A stretch of DNA of 57,254 nt from Candidatus Coproplasma excrementigallinarum (lineage in GTDB: Bacteria; Bacillota; Clostridia; Christensenellales; Borkfalkiaceae): positions 1-57,254 of the forward strand of contig DVNE01000003.1 of the NCBI GenBank assembly GCA_018714625.1, written 5' to 3'. Made by a program: the position numbers and the translations under genes. The notes below the pieces were generated by a model, which did no database searches, was not told the origin of the DNA, and saw only the letters and a program-made list of their open reading frames with translations. Numbering within the stretch: position 1 is the stretch's first letter; each line of letters opens with the position of its first letter. Shown here in pieces: positions 38,869 through 52,221 of the stretch.

Positions 38869-39591
38869 TCAGTTTTTTTCGGGCAAAAATTTCCAATAGC
38901 GCACGGGCATGGATGCGCGCATAAGCTTTTCGTTTTTGCGTTCGGATATATTTACGTTGCGGTAATACTCTTTCCAGAGCTTTTCAAAGCCCGCCTCGCT
39001 CTCCGAAAGGCTTATTTCCGCTCTTTCGGCATTTACCATAATCCAGTTCTGCCCGTTGCTTACCGCCGCCTTGGCGCGGCCTAAATCGTGTATGACAAAT
39101 CTGAGCGCGCCCAATCTTGCTTTAAAGTGTTTTGCCAGAAGGTCGGTTATGTCGTTATCGGGGGAGTAGGGGGCGTACAGTATGCCCTCGGCTGTCTCTT
39201 TGAACCTGATAAAACCGCGCTGTTTGTCCAGCTCGTGCAAAACCTTGTAAATTAAATCGTTGAGCTTCATAACTGGGCGCTCGGCGAGCATCTTTCTTAT
39301 CGGTCTGCCATATTCAATCAGCAGGCGGATATAGTCGAAAGCGGCCTGTTCGCGCTCCGTAAGATTGCTGCGCAGTGCGAGGTCAACATCTCCCGCGGCG
39401 TATCTGTCCGTCTGGTCAATACGGCGGCGCACGCGTATGAACTTTTCTTCGTCCGCCAAAACATTTATAAGCGTGTCGCCTATGCCGAGTTGAATATTTC
39501 CGTCCGAAGTTATTTTGCCGTCCGTCTTCCATGCATCAAATACGGCGGTGTAAAAGCCAATCATTGTGCCGTCTGTGAGGTAAATATTCAT
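38869..39591 (-). CDS. Partner of DNA-repair-type radical SAM protein
   Basis: 240 aa. It matches the uncharacterised family that always accompanies the radical SAM protein encoded just upstream (TIGR03915-like, described as a probable DNA metabolism protein; recalled, not searched). Visible features: the N-terminal YLTDGTMIGFYTAVFDAW, a central helical part (ADEEKFIRVRRRIDQ, LTEREQAAFDYIRLL, YKVLHELDKQRGFIRFKE), and the C-terminal LGRAKAAVSNGQNWIMV with YYRNVNISERKNEKLMRASMPVRYWKFLPE. In some genomes the family is fused to a uracil-DNA-glycosylase-like domain; that domain is absent here. The start overlaps the stop of the radical SAM gene by 4 nt. The operon promoter carries two LexA-like boxes. 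Confidence 0.85.
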   Translation of the reverse strand: MNIYLTDGTMIGFYTAVFDAWKTDGKITSDGNIQLGIGDTLINVLADEEKFIRVRRRIDQTDRYAAGDVDLALRSNLTEREQAAFDYIRLLIEYGRPIRKMLAERPVMKLNDLIYKVLHELDKQRGFIRFKETAEGILYAPYSPDNDITDLLAKHFKARLGALRFVIHDLGRAKAAVSNGQNWIMVNAERAEISLSESEAGFEKLWKEYYRNVNISERKNEKLMRASMPVRYWKFLPEKN

Positions 39592-40844
39592 AGCTGACCG
39601 GTTATCGCCCTCAGCGCGTTGCTGTTGTCTGAAAACAGCGAGAGCTGCTCGTCTTCAGGCTTCTCAATGTTTTTTTCTGCGAGGAGCGCCCGTACATTGC
39701 CGCCGTCTGAACCGTAAAATTTACCTTTGCAGGTTATAAAGTGCTTTGCCCGTTTCAGTACGACGCGCATTTTTTCAAGGTCTTCAAAACCAAGCGAAGT
39801 AAACCTGCGCGCCTCGGTTATTCTGTATGCGCTCTTGGCGCCTATGCCTGGCACGCGGAGCAGCATTTCAAGCGGCGCTCTGTTCACTTCCACAGGGAAG
39901 AGGTGCATATTTTTAAGCGCCCAGGCGCACTTCGGGTCATAATCCTCGCTGAGGTTTTCGCCGATACCGCATATCTCTTCAACGCTGAATCCGTAAAATC
40001 TGAGCAGCCAGTCGGACTGATAAAGTCTGTGCTCGCGAAGAAGTCCTGCGGGCTTTGCGGGCAGAATGGGGCTTGATATAACGGGAATATACGAGGAATA
40101 GTACACTCTTTTAAGCTGCATACAGCGGTAGAGGTACTGTGTAAGCCGCAAAATCTGGCCGTCGCTCTCGGGCGAGGCGCCTACAATCATCTGCGTCGTC
40201 TGCCCCGCCGGCAAAATCCTGCCCCGCCTTATCCTGTTTTCTTTCTGATAAGTGAGCGCCGCGCTCAGCCTCTTCATGGGGTTTACAAGGCTTTCCTTGG
40301 TCTTTTGCGGCGCAAGCAAAAGCAGCGATTTTTCTGACGGCAACTCTATATTGTAGCTCATTCTGTCGGCGTACTTTGCCGCCTCAAGCACGAGCGATTG
40401 GTCTGCGTGCGGTATGCCCTTGAGGTGAATGTAGCCGTTGAAGTTGTATTGCGTGCGCAGCATTTTAACCGTGCGCAGCAGCGCCTCCATAGTGCGGTCG
40501 GGCGTATCGAATACCGCTGATGAGAGGAACAAACCCTCGATATAATTTCTCTTGTAAAAATTTATGGTGAGCGAGCACAAGTCTTCAGGCGAAATGCGCG
40601 CCCTTGGTACGTCCGCCGAGCGACGGTTCGGGCAGTATTCGCAGTTGTAAAGGCACTCGTTGCTCATGAGAATTTTAAGTAGTGAGATACACCTTCCGTC
40701 GGGAGTAAAGGAGTGGCATATCCCCCCGACGGAAGCGTTCCCCAGCCCGCCCTTTTTGTTGGCTCGCGCAGAGCCCGAAGAGGAGCAGGAAACATCATAT
40801 TTAGCGCTTTCAGTAAGAATTTGCAGTGTTTCTGCGTTTAACAT
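39588..40844 (-). CDS. Putative DNA repair/modification radical SAM protein
   Basis: 418 aa, ATG 40844. The radical SAM cluster motif CLYNCEYC (CX3CX2C, residues ~61-68) binds the [4Fe-4S] that cleaves S-adenosylmethionine. The barrel follows, then a helix-hairpin-helix DNA-binding motif in the C-terminal third (LLRVPGIGAKSAYRITEARRF). The last 25 residues are flexible and contain QLSLF (residues 400-404), a match to the bacterial sliding-clamp binding consensus QL(S/D)LF. The family is the TIGR03916-type rSAM linked to UDG proteins (recalled); its reaction is unknown. The transcript has a consensus promoter flanked by two AAAC-N4-GTTT palindromes shared with uvrB. I infer a damage-induced enzyme acting on DNA. 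Confidence 0.9.
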   Translation of the reverse strand: MLNAETLQILTESAKYDVSCSSSGSARANKKGGLGNASVGGICHSFTPDGRCISLLKILMSNECLYNCEYCPNRRSADVPRARISPEDLCSLTINFYKRNYIEGLFLSSAVFDTPDRTMEALLRTVKMLRTQYNFNGYIHLKGIPHADQSLVLEAAKYADRMSYNIELPSEKSLLLLAPQKTKESLVNPMKRLSAALTYQKENRIRRGRILPAGQTTQMIVGASPESDGQILRLTQYLYRCMQLKRVYYSSYIPVISSPILPAKPAGLLREHRLYQSDWLLRFYGFSVEEICGIGENLSEDYDPKCAWALKNMHLFPVEVNRAPLEMLLRVPGIGAKSAYRITEARRFTSLGFEDLEKMRVVLKRAKHFITCKGKFYGSDGGNVRALLAEKNIEKPEDEQLSLFSDNSNALRAITGQL

Positions 40845-40912
40845 GGCATGTATCCCGTAAAAAATGTTGCGGCTGGCACATAAAACCCGAATTGCGCCGT
40901 GAACGGTGTCGC

Positions 40913-40969
40913 AAACATTTGTTTAAATAAATTATATCATTGCCAGCCGACTTTGTCAAACGTTTGTTT
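40913..40969 (-). promoter_or_regulatory. SOS-like promoter of radical SAM operon
   Basis: Minus strand TTGACA (40954-40959), 17-nt spacer, TATAAT (40931-40936). AAACGTTTGTTT (40958-40969) overlaps the -35, and AAACATTTGTTT (40913-40924) covers the expected start site. Both are AAAC-N4-GTTT, a variant of the Firmicutes LexA box GAAC-N4-GTTC. Confidence 0.72.
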
Positions 40970-43612: not shown

Positions 43613-43687
43613 AAACAAATGTTTGCATTTTGCAATTGAAAGTATGATGGCTTTATCGTTGTAAAAAATGCCGTAAAGGTTTATAAT
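43613..43687 (+). promoter_or_regulatory. uvrB control region with LexA-like box
   Basis: AAACAAATGTTT (43613-43624) is the reverse complement of the box at 40913; the identity extends to 14 nt (AAACAAATGTTTGC). A promoter TTGTAA (43659-43664), 17-nt spacer, TATAAT (43682-43687) lies downstream; TATGAT at 43643-43648 may be another -10 nearer the box. Confidence 0.6.
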
Positions 43688-43775: not shown

Positions 43776-45764
43776 ATGGATTTTAAGCTTCATTCAAAAT
43801 TTCAGCCTACCGGCGACCAGCCGCAGGCCATAGAGGCATTAACAGAGGGTGTGCTGGACGGCATACGCACACAGGTGCTTGTCGGCGTGACGGGCAGCGG
43901 CAAGACGTTCACCATGGCGAACATTATAAAGAACGTCAACCGCCCTACGCTGGTAATTGCGCACAACAAGACGCTCGCCGCGCAGCTCTGCAATGAATTC
44001 CGCGAGTTTTTTCCCGAAAACAGGGTGGAGTATTTCGTCTCGTACTACGATTATTATCAGCCCGAAAGCTACATTCCTTCAACTGATACCTATATCGAGA
44101 AGGACATGAGCCTCAATGACGAAATAGATAAACTGCGCAACTCGGCGACGGCCTCCCTGGGTGAGCGGCGCGACGTTATAGTAGTGGCGTCCGTCTCTTG
44201 CATATACGGTCTGGGTGCGCCCGAAGAGTACTTCAGACTTTCAATATCCCTTCGCCCGGGTATGGAGATGGAGCGCGACGCGCTTTTAAGGCGTCTGGTG
44301 GAAATTCAGTATTCGCGCAAGGATGTAGACTTTCAGCGCGCATCCTTCCGCGTCCGCGGCGATGTAGTGGAGATTTTCCCCGCGAGCAACTCTGAAGTGG
44401 CCATCCGCGTTGAATTTTTCGGTGACGAGATAGACAGAATATGCGAGGAAGACGCCCTGACGGGCAACATAATTTCAGAACTCAAGCATGTATGCATATT
44501 TCCTGCAAGCCACTACGCTGTCGGAACGGACAAGCTGGAGCACGCGCTTACAATGATTGAGCGGGATATGCACGACGAGGTAAAGGCCTTTCGCGACGCA
44601 GGCAAACCGCTCGAGGCCGAAAGACTGGAACAGCGCACCACATTCGATATGGAGATGATACGCGAGATAGGCTATTGCAGCGGCGTAGAAAATTACAGCC
44701 GCTACTTCGACGGCAGACAGCCGGGCGAGCCTTCATTTACGCTGCTCGATTACTTTCCCGCGGGCGATTTCCTCGTCTTTATAGACGAGAGCCATATGAC
44801 TATACCGCAGATACGCGCAATGTACCACGGCGACAGAAGCAGAAAGGAGAACCTGGTAAACTACGGTTTCCGTCTGAAGTCGGCATACGACAACAGACCG
44901 CTCACTTTTGAAGAGTTTGATGCGCGCATACCTCAGCTCATATGCGTATCGGCCACACCCGCACCCTACGAGCTCGAGCAGTCGGGAAATACGGTTGAGC
45001 AGCTCATACGCCCGACGGGGCTTCTCGACCCCGAGGTGGAGGTGCGCCCTACCAAGGGTCAGATAGACGATTTGCTCGGCGAGATTAAAAAAACTATCGC
45101 CGCGCAGGGCAGGGTGCTTGTCACCACAATGACAAAGCGCATGGCAGAGAGCCTTACGGACTTCCTCAAAGAACATTCGCTTAAAGTCAAATATATGCAC
45201 AGCGACATAGACGCGCTGGAGAGGATAGATATAATAAACGGACTGCGCAGCGGAGAATTTGATGTGCTGTGCGGCATAAATCTGTTGCGCGAGGGGCTCG
45301 ACCTGCCTGAAGTCAAGCTTGTTGCCATACTCGACGCCGACAAGGAGGGCTTTTTAAGGAGCGAGACGGCGCTCGTACAGACGATAGGCCGCGCCGCGCG
45401 TAATGCAGAGGGCAGGGTTATAATGTATGCCGATACAATAACAGGCAGTATGCGCAGGGCGATAGACGAAACCAACCGCCGCCGCAAGGTGCAGGACGAA
45501 TATAACAAGGCGCACGGCATAATACCAAAAACTATAATCAAGGAAGTAAAGAGCACGATAGGCATTACGGGCAAGAAGAAGGCGGGAGAGGATATAAAGG
45601 CCGCCGATATTCCTGCCGAGATTGAAAAGCTCAAGGCGCTGATGGCGGTTGCCTCGGCTCAGCTCGATTTCGAGCGCGCCATAGAGATACGCGACACTAT
45701 AAATGAGCTAAAAAAGAGAATGCGCACGGCAGGCAAAAGCGTGCCGCAGAAGGAGAAATCCTGA
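43776..45764 (+). CDS. uvrB: Excinuclease ABC subunit B
   Basis: 662 aa, full length. UvrB is the damage-verifying helicase of nucleotide excision repair. Walker [10 protein letters not shown] (residues ~38-46), the beta-hairpin [28 protein letters not shown] in VFIDESHMT, helicase motifs V and VI ([23 protein letters not shown]), and the C-terminal UVR motif ([24 protein letters not shown]) are all present. No Shine-Dalgarno is visible before ATG 43776. A LexA-like box stands upstream. uvrA follows after one broken gene. Confidence 0.97.
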
Positions 45765-50296: not shown

Positions 50297-50764
50297 ATGG
50301 AATCTAATGACAAGAAAATATTATCACATAGCCAGTGGAATTGCAAGTACCATATAGTGTTTGCGCCGAAGTACAGACGAAAAATATTTTATGAAAGCCA
50401 CAGAAAGGCAATAATGGGGATAATCCGCGAATTATGTGACTGGAAGAAAGTAGAGATATTGGAAGGCGAAATGGCAATAGACCATGTACATCTGTTGGTA
50501 ATGATACCGCCCAAGATAAGCGTGTCAGGATTTATGGGGTATTTAAAGGGAAAAAGCAGTTTAATAATATACCAGAAATTTGGCACGGCAAAGTATAAGT
50601 ACAGATGCAGAGAATTTTGGTGTCGTGGCTACTATGTAGACACGACAGGCAAAAATACTCAGGTAATCAAGGAGTATATAAGAAACCAATTGAAGAAAGA
50701 CAGGGAAAATATGCAGTTAAGCATTGATTACCCTGAGGACCCGTTTACGGGTAGCGAGCAATAA
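50297..50764 (+). CDS. tnpA: IS200/IS605-family Y1 transposase
   Basis: 155 aa from ATG 50297 with GGAGG upstream; the longer track ORF reads through the leader. It is an HUH single-strand transposase: KYHIVFAPKYRRKIFY, the HUH motif IDHVHLLVMIPP, and the catalytic tyrosine in the C-terminal helix NTQVIKEYIRNQ. It works as a dimer on hairpin ends during replication. Length and all catalytic residues are normal, so the element may still be active. No TnpB/IscB accessory gene is present. Confidence 0.95.
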   Translation: MESNDKKILSHSQWNCKYHIVFAPKYRRKIFYESHRKAIMGIIRELCDWKKVEILEGEMAIDHVHLLVMIPPKISVSGFMGYLKGKSSLIIYQKFGTAKYKYRCREFWCRGYYVDTTGKNTQVIKEYIRNQLKKDRENMQLSIDYPEDPFTGSEQ

Positions 50765-50872
50765 GCGCAGCGACTGGCAGGTCGACATATGAGCGCGTGG
50801 CGCTCGGACTAGTAGACTAGGGCTATGCCCGAAAATGAAGAACCTCCCGCTTAGCGGGAGGGTTTCTTTTTT

Positions 50873-51781
50873 ATACTCAATTTTCCCGTTTTTGCGTTTA
50901 CGGTTGCGACAAATAAGGAAGTTGCCTTCGATATGCGTTTCGTCGTCAAGCTCGCACGGCCGCACGCCAAAGAAGTAGAGGGAATAGGCAGCCTGCCGCA
51001 CCCAGTCAAACCGCTTGGCTTTAAGATTATTTAAGAACGCCCGTATTTCGTCGTCTGTAAGGCTTCTGCGGCTTATTCGTTCTGCACGCTTAAAAGGCAA
51101 CAAGGTGACGGGATTGTGGCTTATAACAGCATTTAACAGCGCGTACTTAAACACAGAATTCAAAAGTATTCGCATTTCCTCGTACATTCGCGGCTGATTT
51201 GCAAACTGCTCCATAAACTCGTTTAACCTTGCCGTTCTGATAGACTTGATATCCGCGGCCTTTAAGTTATCGTCAAAGTATTTGTCCGCGTGCATTTTGT
51301 AGGTCTGCCAGGTTCGTATATGTATTTTGTCTTTTTTATACGCCAGCCATTCGTCCAGCATTTCCTTAAATGTAATTACCTTGTCCTTTATAGGCTCGCC
51401 GAGATGTGCCGTTGCCTTGGTAAACATTTCCTTTGCCGTCTTTAAATCTTTATTCGATACCGTTATGTTGTAGCCGTTGCGGCGATAGCGTATTTCGTAG
51501 TAGAAGCCGCTTTTGCCGCTTGGCCGTTTTATTATATGGGCGACACACCCGCCCGCTATAAACTCCTTTTTAAATGTTTTCGACATACCTTTCAATTCCT
51601 CACTCGTGAATTTAATAGTAGTCGATAATGCTTTTTTGTCAGGCTGTGCGCCCGCTTTTTCAATTTCCATTGCGCGCGATATCAACCCGTTTAATTCTCC
51701 AGCCAGCGCAATAATTTCGCCGCGCTCGTGAGCTGTCATAAGCATAGTTGATATTGCTATTAAATCGCTTGATAACTTCAT
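50873..51781 (-). pseudogene. Tyrosine integrase truncated by the IS200 insertion
   Basis: ATG 51781 has AAGGGGG upstream (the track TTG adds two codons). About 303 codons of genuine integrase remain: an N-terminal part, the arm-binding AP2-like segment (GFYYEIRYRRNGYNITV), the core-binding SAM-like domain (VITFKEMLDEWLAYKKDKIHIRTWQTY...), and the catalytic start with the first Arg (YFFGVRPCEL). The frame then runs into IS DNA after NGKIEYKK and stops at 50717. The HxxR box and the tyrosine nucleophile are lost, so it cannot recombine. A LexA-like box lies over its promoter, as in SOS-induced prophages and ICEs. Confidence 0.9.
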
Positions 51782-51801
51782 AGTCAACCCCCTTAATATT
51801 A

Positions 51802-51821
51802 AAACATTTGTTTATATTATA
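51802..51821 (-). promoter_or_regulatory. LexA-like box at integrase promoter
   Basis: AAACATTTGTTT (51802-51813) is the same 12-mer as at 40913. On the minus strand TATAAT (51816-51821) ends directly before it, so the box covers the expected start site. CATAGTCAAC near 51780 and GTTGACTATA near 51831 form an outer inverted repeat. Confidence 0.6.
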
Positions 51822-51862: not shown

Positions 51863-52210
51863 TTATTTTTTTTTATTGGTTTTTATCGTTGTTTTTAACA
51901 AATCAATAATAGTAGAAAGCATTTCTTGGCCGCCGACCTCGATAATAGCGCTTCTCAGTTCCAGCCATTCCCATTCGTCGGCCGAGAGCGTGATGGCGTG
52001 TTTGCCAACACCTTCAGCTTTTTCCTCCGCCGTCCAGTCCGAAAGTCCGAGCGCGCGTTCAATGGCCTCCATTGTATCAGCTCGAGGATATTTTGCAAAT
52101 CCGCCTAAAATCTTAGTAACAGTACTAATAGATAAATTTGTTTGCTTAGCTAACTGTGCATATGTAATTTTATTTTTTTTCATGTACTCTTTAATTTTTT
52201 CTATTTCCAT
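51863..52210 (-). CDS. XRE-family repressor-like protein of the mobile region
   Basis: 115 aa from ATG 52210; the track GTG at 52219 belongs to the AAAGGTG ribosome binding site. Residues ~5-60 form a helix-turn-helix (IKEYMKKNKITYAQLAKQTNLSISTVTKILGGFAKYPRADTMEAIERALGLS). The C-terminal half (ITLSADEWEWLELRSAIIEVGGQEMLSTIIDLLK) is helical, likely for dimerisation. It is second gene in an operon with the GIY-YIG gene (11-nt gap) and reads toward the integrase. It is the natural candidate to bind the three similar palindromes at 53760-53847 and keep the element quiet. Confidence 0.85.
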   Translation of the reverse strand: MEIEKIKEYMKKNKITYAQLAKQTNLSISTVTKILGGFAKYPRADTMEAIERALGLSDWTAEEKAEGVGKHAITLSADEWEWLELRSAIIEVGGQEMLSTIIDLLKTTIKTNKKK

Positions 52211-52221
52211 TGTTTTCACCT

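Follow-up and report, generated by a model that had tools for sequence, protein, structure and literature searches.

A putatively LexA-repressed radical SAM protein with a predicted DnaN-binding tail in Candidatus Coproplasma excrementigallinarum

Analysis of a 57,254 nt stretch of DNA from Candidatus Coproplasma excrementigallinarum (GCA_018714625.1, contig DVNE01000003.1; hereafter the window) identified a two-gene operon encoding a radical SAM protein (rSAM) and a DUF4130 partner. On the sequence evidence, the operon is best read, with good confidence, as encoding a putative lesion-processing radical SAM enzyme that would be repressed by LexA and tethered to the clamp protein DnaN. At the sequence level, the identity of the genes, the boxes at their promoter and the conservation of both the rSAM tail motif and the operon are established (Table 1). 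The genome is an incomplete MAG of 1.43 Mb (75.7% complete), referred to below as the bin.

Table 1. Features of the radical SAM operon and of the related box upstream of uvrB (positions in the window)
Feature	Position	Strand	Remarks
Partner protein, 240 aa, TIGR03915 / DUF4130	38869..39591	-	NCBIfam 192.4 bits (curated cut-off 112.25)
Radical SAM protein, 418 aa, TIGR03916 (rSAM_link_UDG; COG4277)	39588..40844	-	NCBIfam 567.2 bits (curated cut-off 343.5), residues 5-394, nearly full length
QLSLF, residues 400-404, predicted beta-clamp-binding motif	39633..39647	-	Low-confidence C-terminal tail
Helix-hairpin-helix region, residues 318-351	39792..39893	-	PF12836 (below cut-off) and ComEA-type structure match
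Radical SAM cluster motif C64-X3-C68-X2-C71	40632..40655	-	Invariant, 71/71
N-terminal extra cysteines C20, C43 (with H44), C52	40689..40787	-	Possible auxiliary metal site
SOS (LexA) box 2, AAACAAATGTTT, predicted	40913..40924	-	About the expected start site
-10 element TATAAT	40931..40936	-	Read from sequence; kept in other two-box promoters
-35 element TTGACA	40954..40959	-	Read from sequence; kept in other two-box promoters
SOS (LexA) box 1, AAACAAACGTTT, predicted	40958..40969	-	Overlaps the -35 element
SOS box of the same type before uvrB (43776-45764), predicted	43613..43624	+	AAACN4GTTT copy

Operon organisation and the partner protein

Both gene products scored above their curated NCBIfam cut-offs. 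TIGR03916 and TIGR03915 are each catalogued as putative DNA repair proteins, which agrees with what the earlier note had said of the pair. The start of the partner gene overlaps the stop codon of the rSAM gene by 4 nt (ATGA), and a TIGR03915 partner was found downstream of the rSAM gene on the same strand in 202 of 209 loci. The pairing of TIGR03916 / COG4277 with TIGR03915 / DUF4130 has the same gene order and coupling as the operon of the window. The nearest rSAM homologues were those of Candidatus Coproplasma and other uncultured Clostridia. The family was identified in 87 of the 93 genomes of the genus and, above the curated cut-off, in 92 of 399 genomes sampled across the phylum. Searches of PHROGs and PADLOC gave no match for the pair, indicating that it does not belong to a known phage or defence family.

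The partner was modelled with AlphaFold2 at a pLDDT of 93.7. Its fold was found to best match, weakly, that of DHH phosphoesterases (8a8k, E 3.6e-3, TM 0.40), with viral DHH proteins matching in a second structure library. Its identification as a DHH phosphoesterase was rejected, as profile comparison with 17 NrnA-like proteins using hhalign gave a probability of 0.2 and the DHH and GGGH motifs are absent; only a weak likeness in predicted fold to this group (RecJ, NrnA-like proteins, PAP phosphatase) is therefore retained. Residues D7, R129, F130, P144, R159, D169, R218, P229 and E238 of the partner are invariant, which suggests that they mark a putative active or binding site.

Among Alphaproteobacteria (Thioclava, Azospirillum, Agrobacterium, Paracoccus and Leisingera), the second gene of the operon is annotated as UdgX-family. 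Its product matches the profile of the DUF4130 partner, which is there fused to a UdgX-type uracil-DNA-binding domain. The COG1573-COG4277 operon of Bacteroidetes, described as being under LexA, likewise carries the same rSAM gene, with a second gene that includes a UDG/UdgX domain, whereas DUF4130 stands alone in the operon of the window (PMC8565304). The alphaproteobacterial fusion makes it probable that the lesion has to do with uracil, abasic sites or UdgX-type adducts. The pair could act on what a uracil-DNA glycosylase or UdgX leaves behind, processing or resolving it in an excision context, rather than reverse damage directly. This possibility is given somewhat less than an even chance, and it is a sub-case that agrees with both clamp tethering and SOS control. 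The link to UDG is also recorded in the NCBIfam name rSAM_link_UDG, PMC8565304 describes such a system as putative UDG base excision, and the weak resemblance of the partner model to RecJ would be in keeping with it. Against it stand the composition of the window operon, where only rSAM and DUF4130 were found and no UDG domain, and the partner's lack of both a profile relation to DHH proteins and their catalytic motifs. The earlier proposal of a base lesion possibly reversed or processed without excision found no support; the UdgX fusion points, if anything, to an excision or abasic-site context.

The C-terminal tail and the radical SAM core

Clamp-binding peptides follow the consensus Q-phi-x-[L/M]-[F/L], or the hexamer Q-phi-x-[L/M]-x-[F/L], with QLxLF and QLxLxF as the strongest forms (PMC11139829). 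The QLSLF of the rSAM tail falls within this published definition, as had been noted earlier. The strict published motif was identified in 158 of 196 homologue tails against 5.5 expected by shuffling. With a relaxed definition, a clamp-motif-like peptide was found in 191 of the 196, close homologues included (10.7 expected), and in 96 of 100 non-redundant tails (6.3 expected); as controls, the same relaxed definition was matched by 22 of 937 other open frames and by two of 203 partner C-termini. In the phylum-wide sample only 35 of 67 tails carried the strict motif, the others being mostly near-variants such as QLSIF, QLSFF and QLSLW; for a tryptophan in the final position, weaker clamp binding is reported (PMC11139829). 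A phylum-spanning alignment of 71 rows showed Q400 to be conserved in 70, L401 in 60 and F404 in 62, with the tail around the motif otherwise mostly variable or gapped.

The AlphaFold2 model of rSAM (input rows from the window and from genome sequences, with those of named plasmid and phage records left out) had a mean pLDDT of 90.2. Its tail, from about residue 391, was modelled at a pLDDT of 52-62, which fits a flexible segment. The gene dnaN was not found in the 75.7%-complete bin; it was identified in 24 of 25 genus relatives, with a canonical LILPVRT at the C-terminus of its product. As a sequence feature shared between phyla, a DnaN-binding tail has strong support. A peptide motif by itself does not prove binding to DnaN, and the binding of rSAM to DnaN is to be taken as putative. 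The clamp-tethered SOS polymerases Pol IV and Pol V, and ImuB, are damage-induced factors with a tail of the QLxLF type; rSAM would work in the same way, but it is unrelated to them and would perform radical SAM chemistry, not DNA synthesis.

The conserved C-terminal peptide might instead only resemble a clamp motif and have its docking site on the DUF4130 partner or on the rSAM core itself. Such a docking peptide would be plausible for a pair that is nearly always encoded together, and close homologues, which mostly have QLSMF or QLSLF, share a further short tail (about xALTGEL) that is conserved only among these close relatives. This explanation is nevertheless considered unlikely. Substitutions in the motif track the known classes of clamp motif, both pentamer (QLSLF, QLSMF, QLTLF, QMTLF, QLSLW) and hexamer (QLSWDF, QLLLDF, QLSLGF), and the motif lies at a variable distance from the folded core (16 to 44 residues, counted from a fixed landmark). 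Furthermore, the motif forms the last five residues of the protein in several Firmicutes and in Alphaproteobacteria, even though the partner in the latter is a different, UdgX-annotated protein. The low confidence of the tail in the AlphaFold2 model also argues against docking.

A clamp-binding tail on rSAM is well supported and, as far as the searchable literature shows, new. No report of a clamp motif in rSAM/TIGR03916 proteins was retrieved (subscription papers and preprints lay outside the scope of the search), and no radical SAM protein was the subject of any title listed for clamp binding. The catalogue entry for TIGR03916 is putative, and its model name makes no reference to the clamp-motif tail, which is near-universal here.

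The core of rSAM carries the CX3CX2C described in the earlier note (C64, C68 and C71). Three further cysteines are near-invariant in the 71-row alignment (C20 and C52 in 71 rows, C43 in 70), as is H44 (69 rows). HydE and LIAS are radical SAM proteins that carry auxiliary clusters, and a putative auxiliary metal site on C20, C43 and C52 is therefore a reasonable guess for the whole TIGR03916 family. The helix-hairpin-helix (HhH) region that had also been described is upheld by a match to a ComEA-type HhH structure in PDB sequence searches, but its PF12836 score of 23.4 bits (E 6.3e-5) falls below the Pfam curated cut-off of 27. Beyond this HhH domain, the PDB sequence searches with rSAM and the partner gave no informative relative. 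The closest solved folds to the rSAM model were HydE, lipoyl synthase and biotin synthase (E 4e-8 and weaker, TM about 0.4), none of which acts on DNA, and this counts against the preferred reading of rSAM as a lesion-processing enzyme.

Reversal of a UV dimer by rSAM, as an SplB-like photoproduct lyase, is improbable. SplB is likewise a radical SAM protein, acts on DNA and is often SOS-linked; rSAM, under predicted SOS control and proposed to act on DNA, would be similar in these respects, and such proteins were termed SplB-like in PMC3765255. However, the best fold matches of rSAM were HydE, LIAS, BioB and PylB, with no spore photoproduct lyase among the best 50 structural matches, and no match to the SplB family was obtained in family searches. 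The three extra invariant cysteines, the HhH region and the clamp tail further distinguish rSAM from SplB, and its carriers are gut anaerobes, presumably with little exposure to UV.

Promoter boxes and the LexA regulon

The operon is preceded by a minus-strand promoter, TTGACA-17-TATAAT, flanked by two AAACAAAYGTTT boxes, the palindromes lying exactly where the earlier note had placed them. AAACN4GTTT occurs six times in the window against 1.6 expected, a count reached by one of 100 shuffles. Another 13 close records show the same order of box, -35, -10 and box. In these, the starts of the two boxes are 45 to 48 nt apart, box 1 overlaps the -35 element and box 2 lies downstream of the -10 element, while the spacer sequence diverges.

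A search of the bin identified AAACAWWYGTTT at ten places, including the two at the rSAM operon. The neighbours of these boxes comprise the rSAM operon, uvrB, two Y-family polymerases and a RecD/Pif1-like SF1 helicase; the box before uvrB supports the operon boxes being LexA boxes. One of the ten (C46:60964) lies inside a gene end and looks like chance. No lexA was found in the 75.7%-complete bin, where a MarR-like protein, recovered as a weak match only with the LexA DNA-binding domain, was rejected as LexA. Matches to lexA were obtained in 20 of 24 genus relatives (18 of them above the curated cut-off), so that the gene, absent from the incomplete bin, is present in the genus. All 13 lexA loci fetched from the genus have RAACN4GTTY upstream of the gene. 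In two genus genomes, G002 and G065 (95% and 99% complete), such a box precedes lexA by 48 nt. Both genomes also have it ahead of the rSAM operon and where the helicase gene starts, and one of the two has it ahead of uvrB and a Y-family polymerase. For recA (L032, G000:C46:38971), no RAACN4GTTY was found in the 1.5 kb upstream, and recA may thus lie outside the LexA regulon here. This, like the failure to find lexA and dnaN in the incomplete bin, counts against the preferred reading.

Further comparison, covering the 200 nt upstream of the rSAM gene, showed RAACN4GTTY for 107 of 111 close homologues, for 12 of 12 further genus genomes and for 49 of 70 homologues from the phylum-wide sample; dinucleotide shuffles gave expected counts of 3.6 for the close homologues and 1.4 for the phylum-wide sample. 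In Alphaproteobacteria, for which the comparison set consisted of named plasmid records, GAACN7GAAC was present within 160 nt upstream of the rSAM gene in all seven; the LexA box consensus of this class is GTTCN7GTTC (PMC12700426). LexA control would thus be kept while the operator sequence changes, a pattern that is hard to account for in any other way. SOS control of the operon, as proposed in the earlier note, is strongly supported by this comparison, with the box enriched before the rSAM gene and standing before lexA in relatives. From the boxes, LexA would act as the repressor of the operon. Binding of the AAACN4GTTT boxes by another repressor, with the operon outside the SOS regulon, would accord with the failure to find lexA in the incomplete bin but is very improbable given the lexA matches in relatives, the boxes before lexA, uvrB, the Y-family polymerase and the helicase, and the unrelated local LexA box of the alphaproteobacterial homologues.

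SOS control of the rSAM/partner pair is not new, having already been predicted for Clostridium, Bacteroidetes, Verrucomicrobia and Alphaproteobacteria. DUF4130 and SplB-like radical SAM proteins were tied to SOS neighbourhoods in 2013 (PMC3765255). In the same year Clostridium acetobutylicum CAC3343-CAC3344 was placed in the LexA regulon, a prediction based on footprinting and on expression under solvent stress (PMC3828012). This pair has the same rSAM annotation, a downstream gene of unknown function and the same type of SOS control, and the available text describes no clamp motif for it (PMC3828012). A UDG-based system had earlier been reported in Verrucomicrobia and Alphaproteobacteria, as cited in PMC8565304, and an Acinetobacter homologue rises on desiccation (PMC13130816). 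The literature search found no paper mentioning TIGR03916, nor any mentioning UdgX together with radical SAM.

Several other loci with such boxes were observed. The meaning of two of the ten boxes of the bin, at C46:63303 and at 51802 of the window, is uncertain; the latter (AAACATTTGTTT, 51802-51813) is flanked by an integrase-like gene (50717-51787) on one side and a Cro-type regulator (51863-52219) on the other and perhaps reflects SOS control of a mobile element. Two genomes encode, directly behind an SOS box, small proteins of some 125 residues (L002:1104-1502, minus strand, G000:C15:46595; L256:1538-1906, plus strand, G002:C6:63898) that appear to be homologous and have no Pfam match; they are candidate SOS-induced proteins, perhaps inhibitors of cell division. 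An ATP-dependent DNA ligase gene was found to adjoin an SOS-boxed Y-family polymerase (L009:1543-2466 and L009:2-1483, both minus strand), and this polymerase itself carries EQLDLF, a consensus clamp motif. The phage record MT835514.1 (L241; 43.8 kb, an unverified 'Bacteriophage sp.' from human faeces) contains this rSAM gene too, together with an SOS box and a tail reading QLSFF, and may be a bacterial contig.

Proposed mechanism and significance

Judging from the boxes, LexA bound at the two sites straddling the promoter would keep the operon off, and DNA damage would switch it on through RecA-stimulated cleavage of LexA. The HhH region of rSAM would serve as a DNA-binding element, and the flexible tail peptide would most likely bind the hydrophobic pocket of DnaN. 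If the tail does so, the enzyme would be delivered to newly replicated or gapped DNA, in the manner of translesion polymerases, and its probable site of action is damaged DNA at the replication fork or behind it. There, rSAM would generate a 5'-deoxyadenosyl radical and process a base or sugar lesion, the translationally coupled DUF4130 partner acting together with it. In its widest form, the proposal is that rSAM, in bacteria ranging from Clostridia to Alphaproteobacteria, is a damage-induced DnaN client that works with DUF4130, and sometimes with UdgX, to mend a replication-associated lesion by an undescribed chemistry, possibly involving an auxiliary metal site; the chances of this are evenly balanced.

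The rSAM family is widespread, and a clamp-binding tail would place the enzyme at the replisome. The motif offers an immediate experimental handle on the family. Should binding to DnaN hold true, rSAM would be, as far as could be found, the first radical SAM client of the clamp, and the search for its lesion would narrow to those met during replication.
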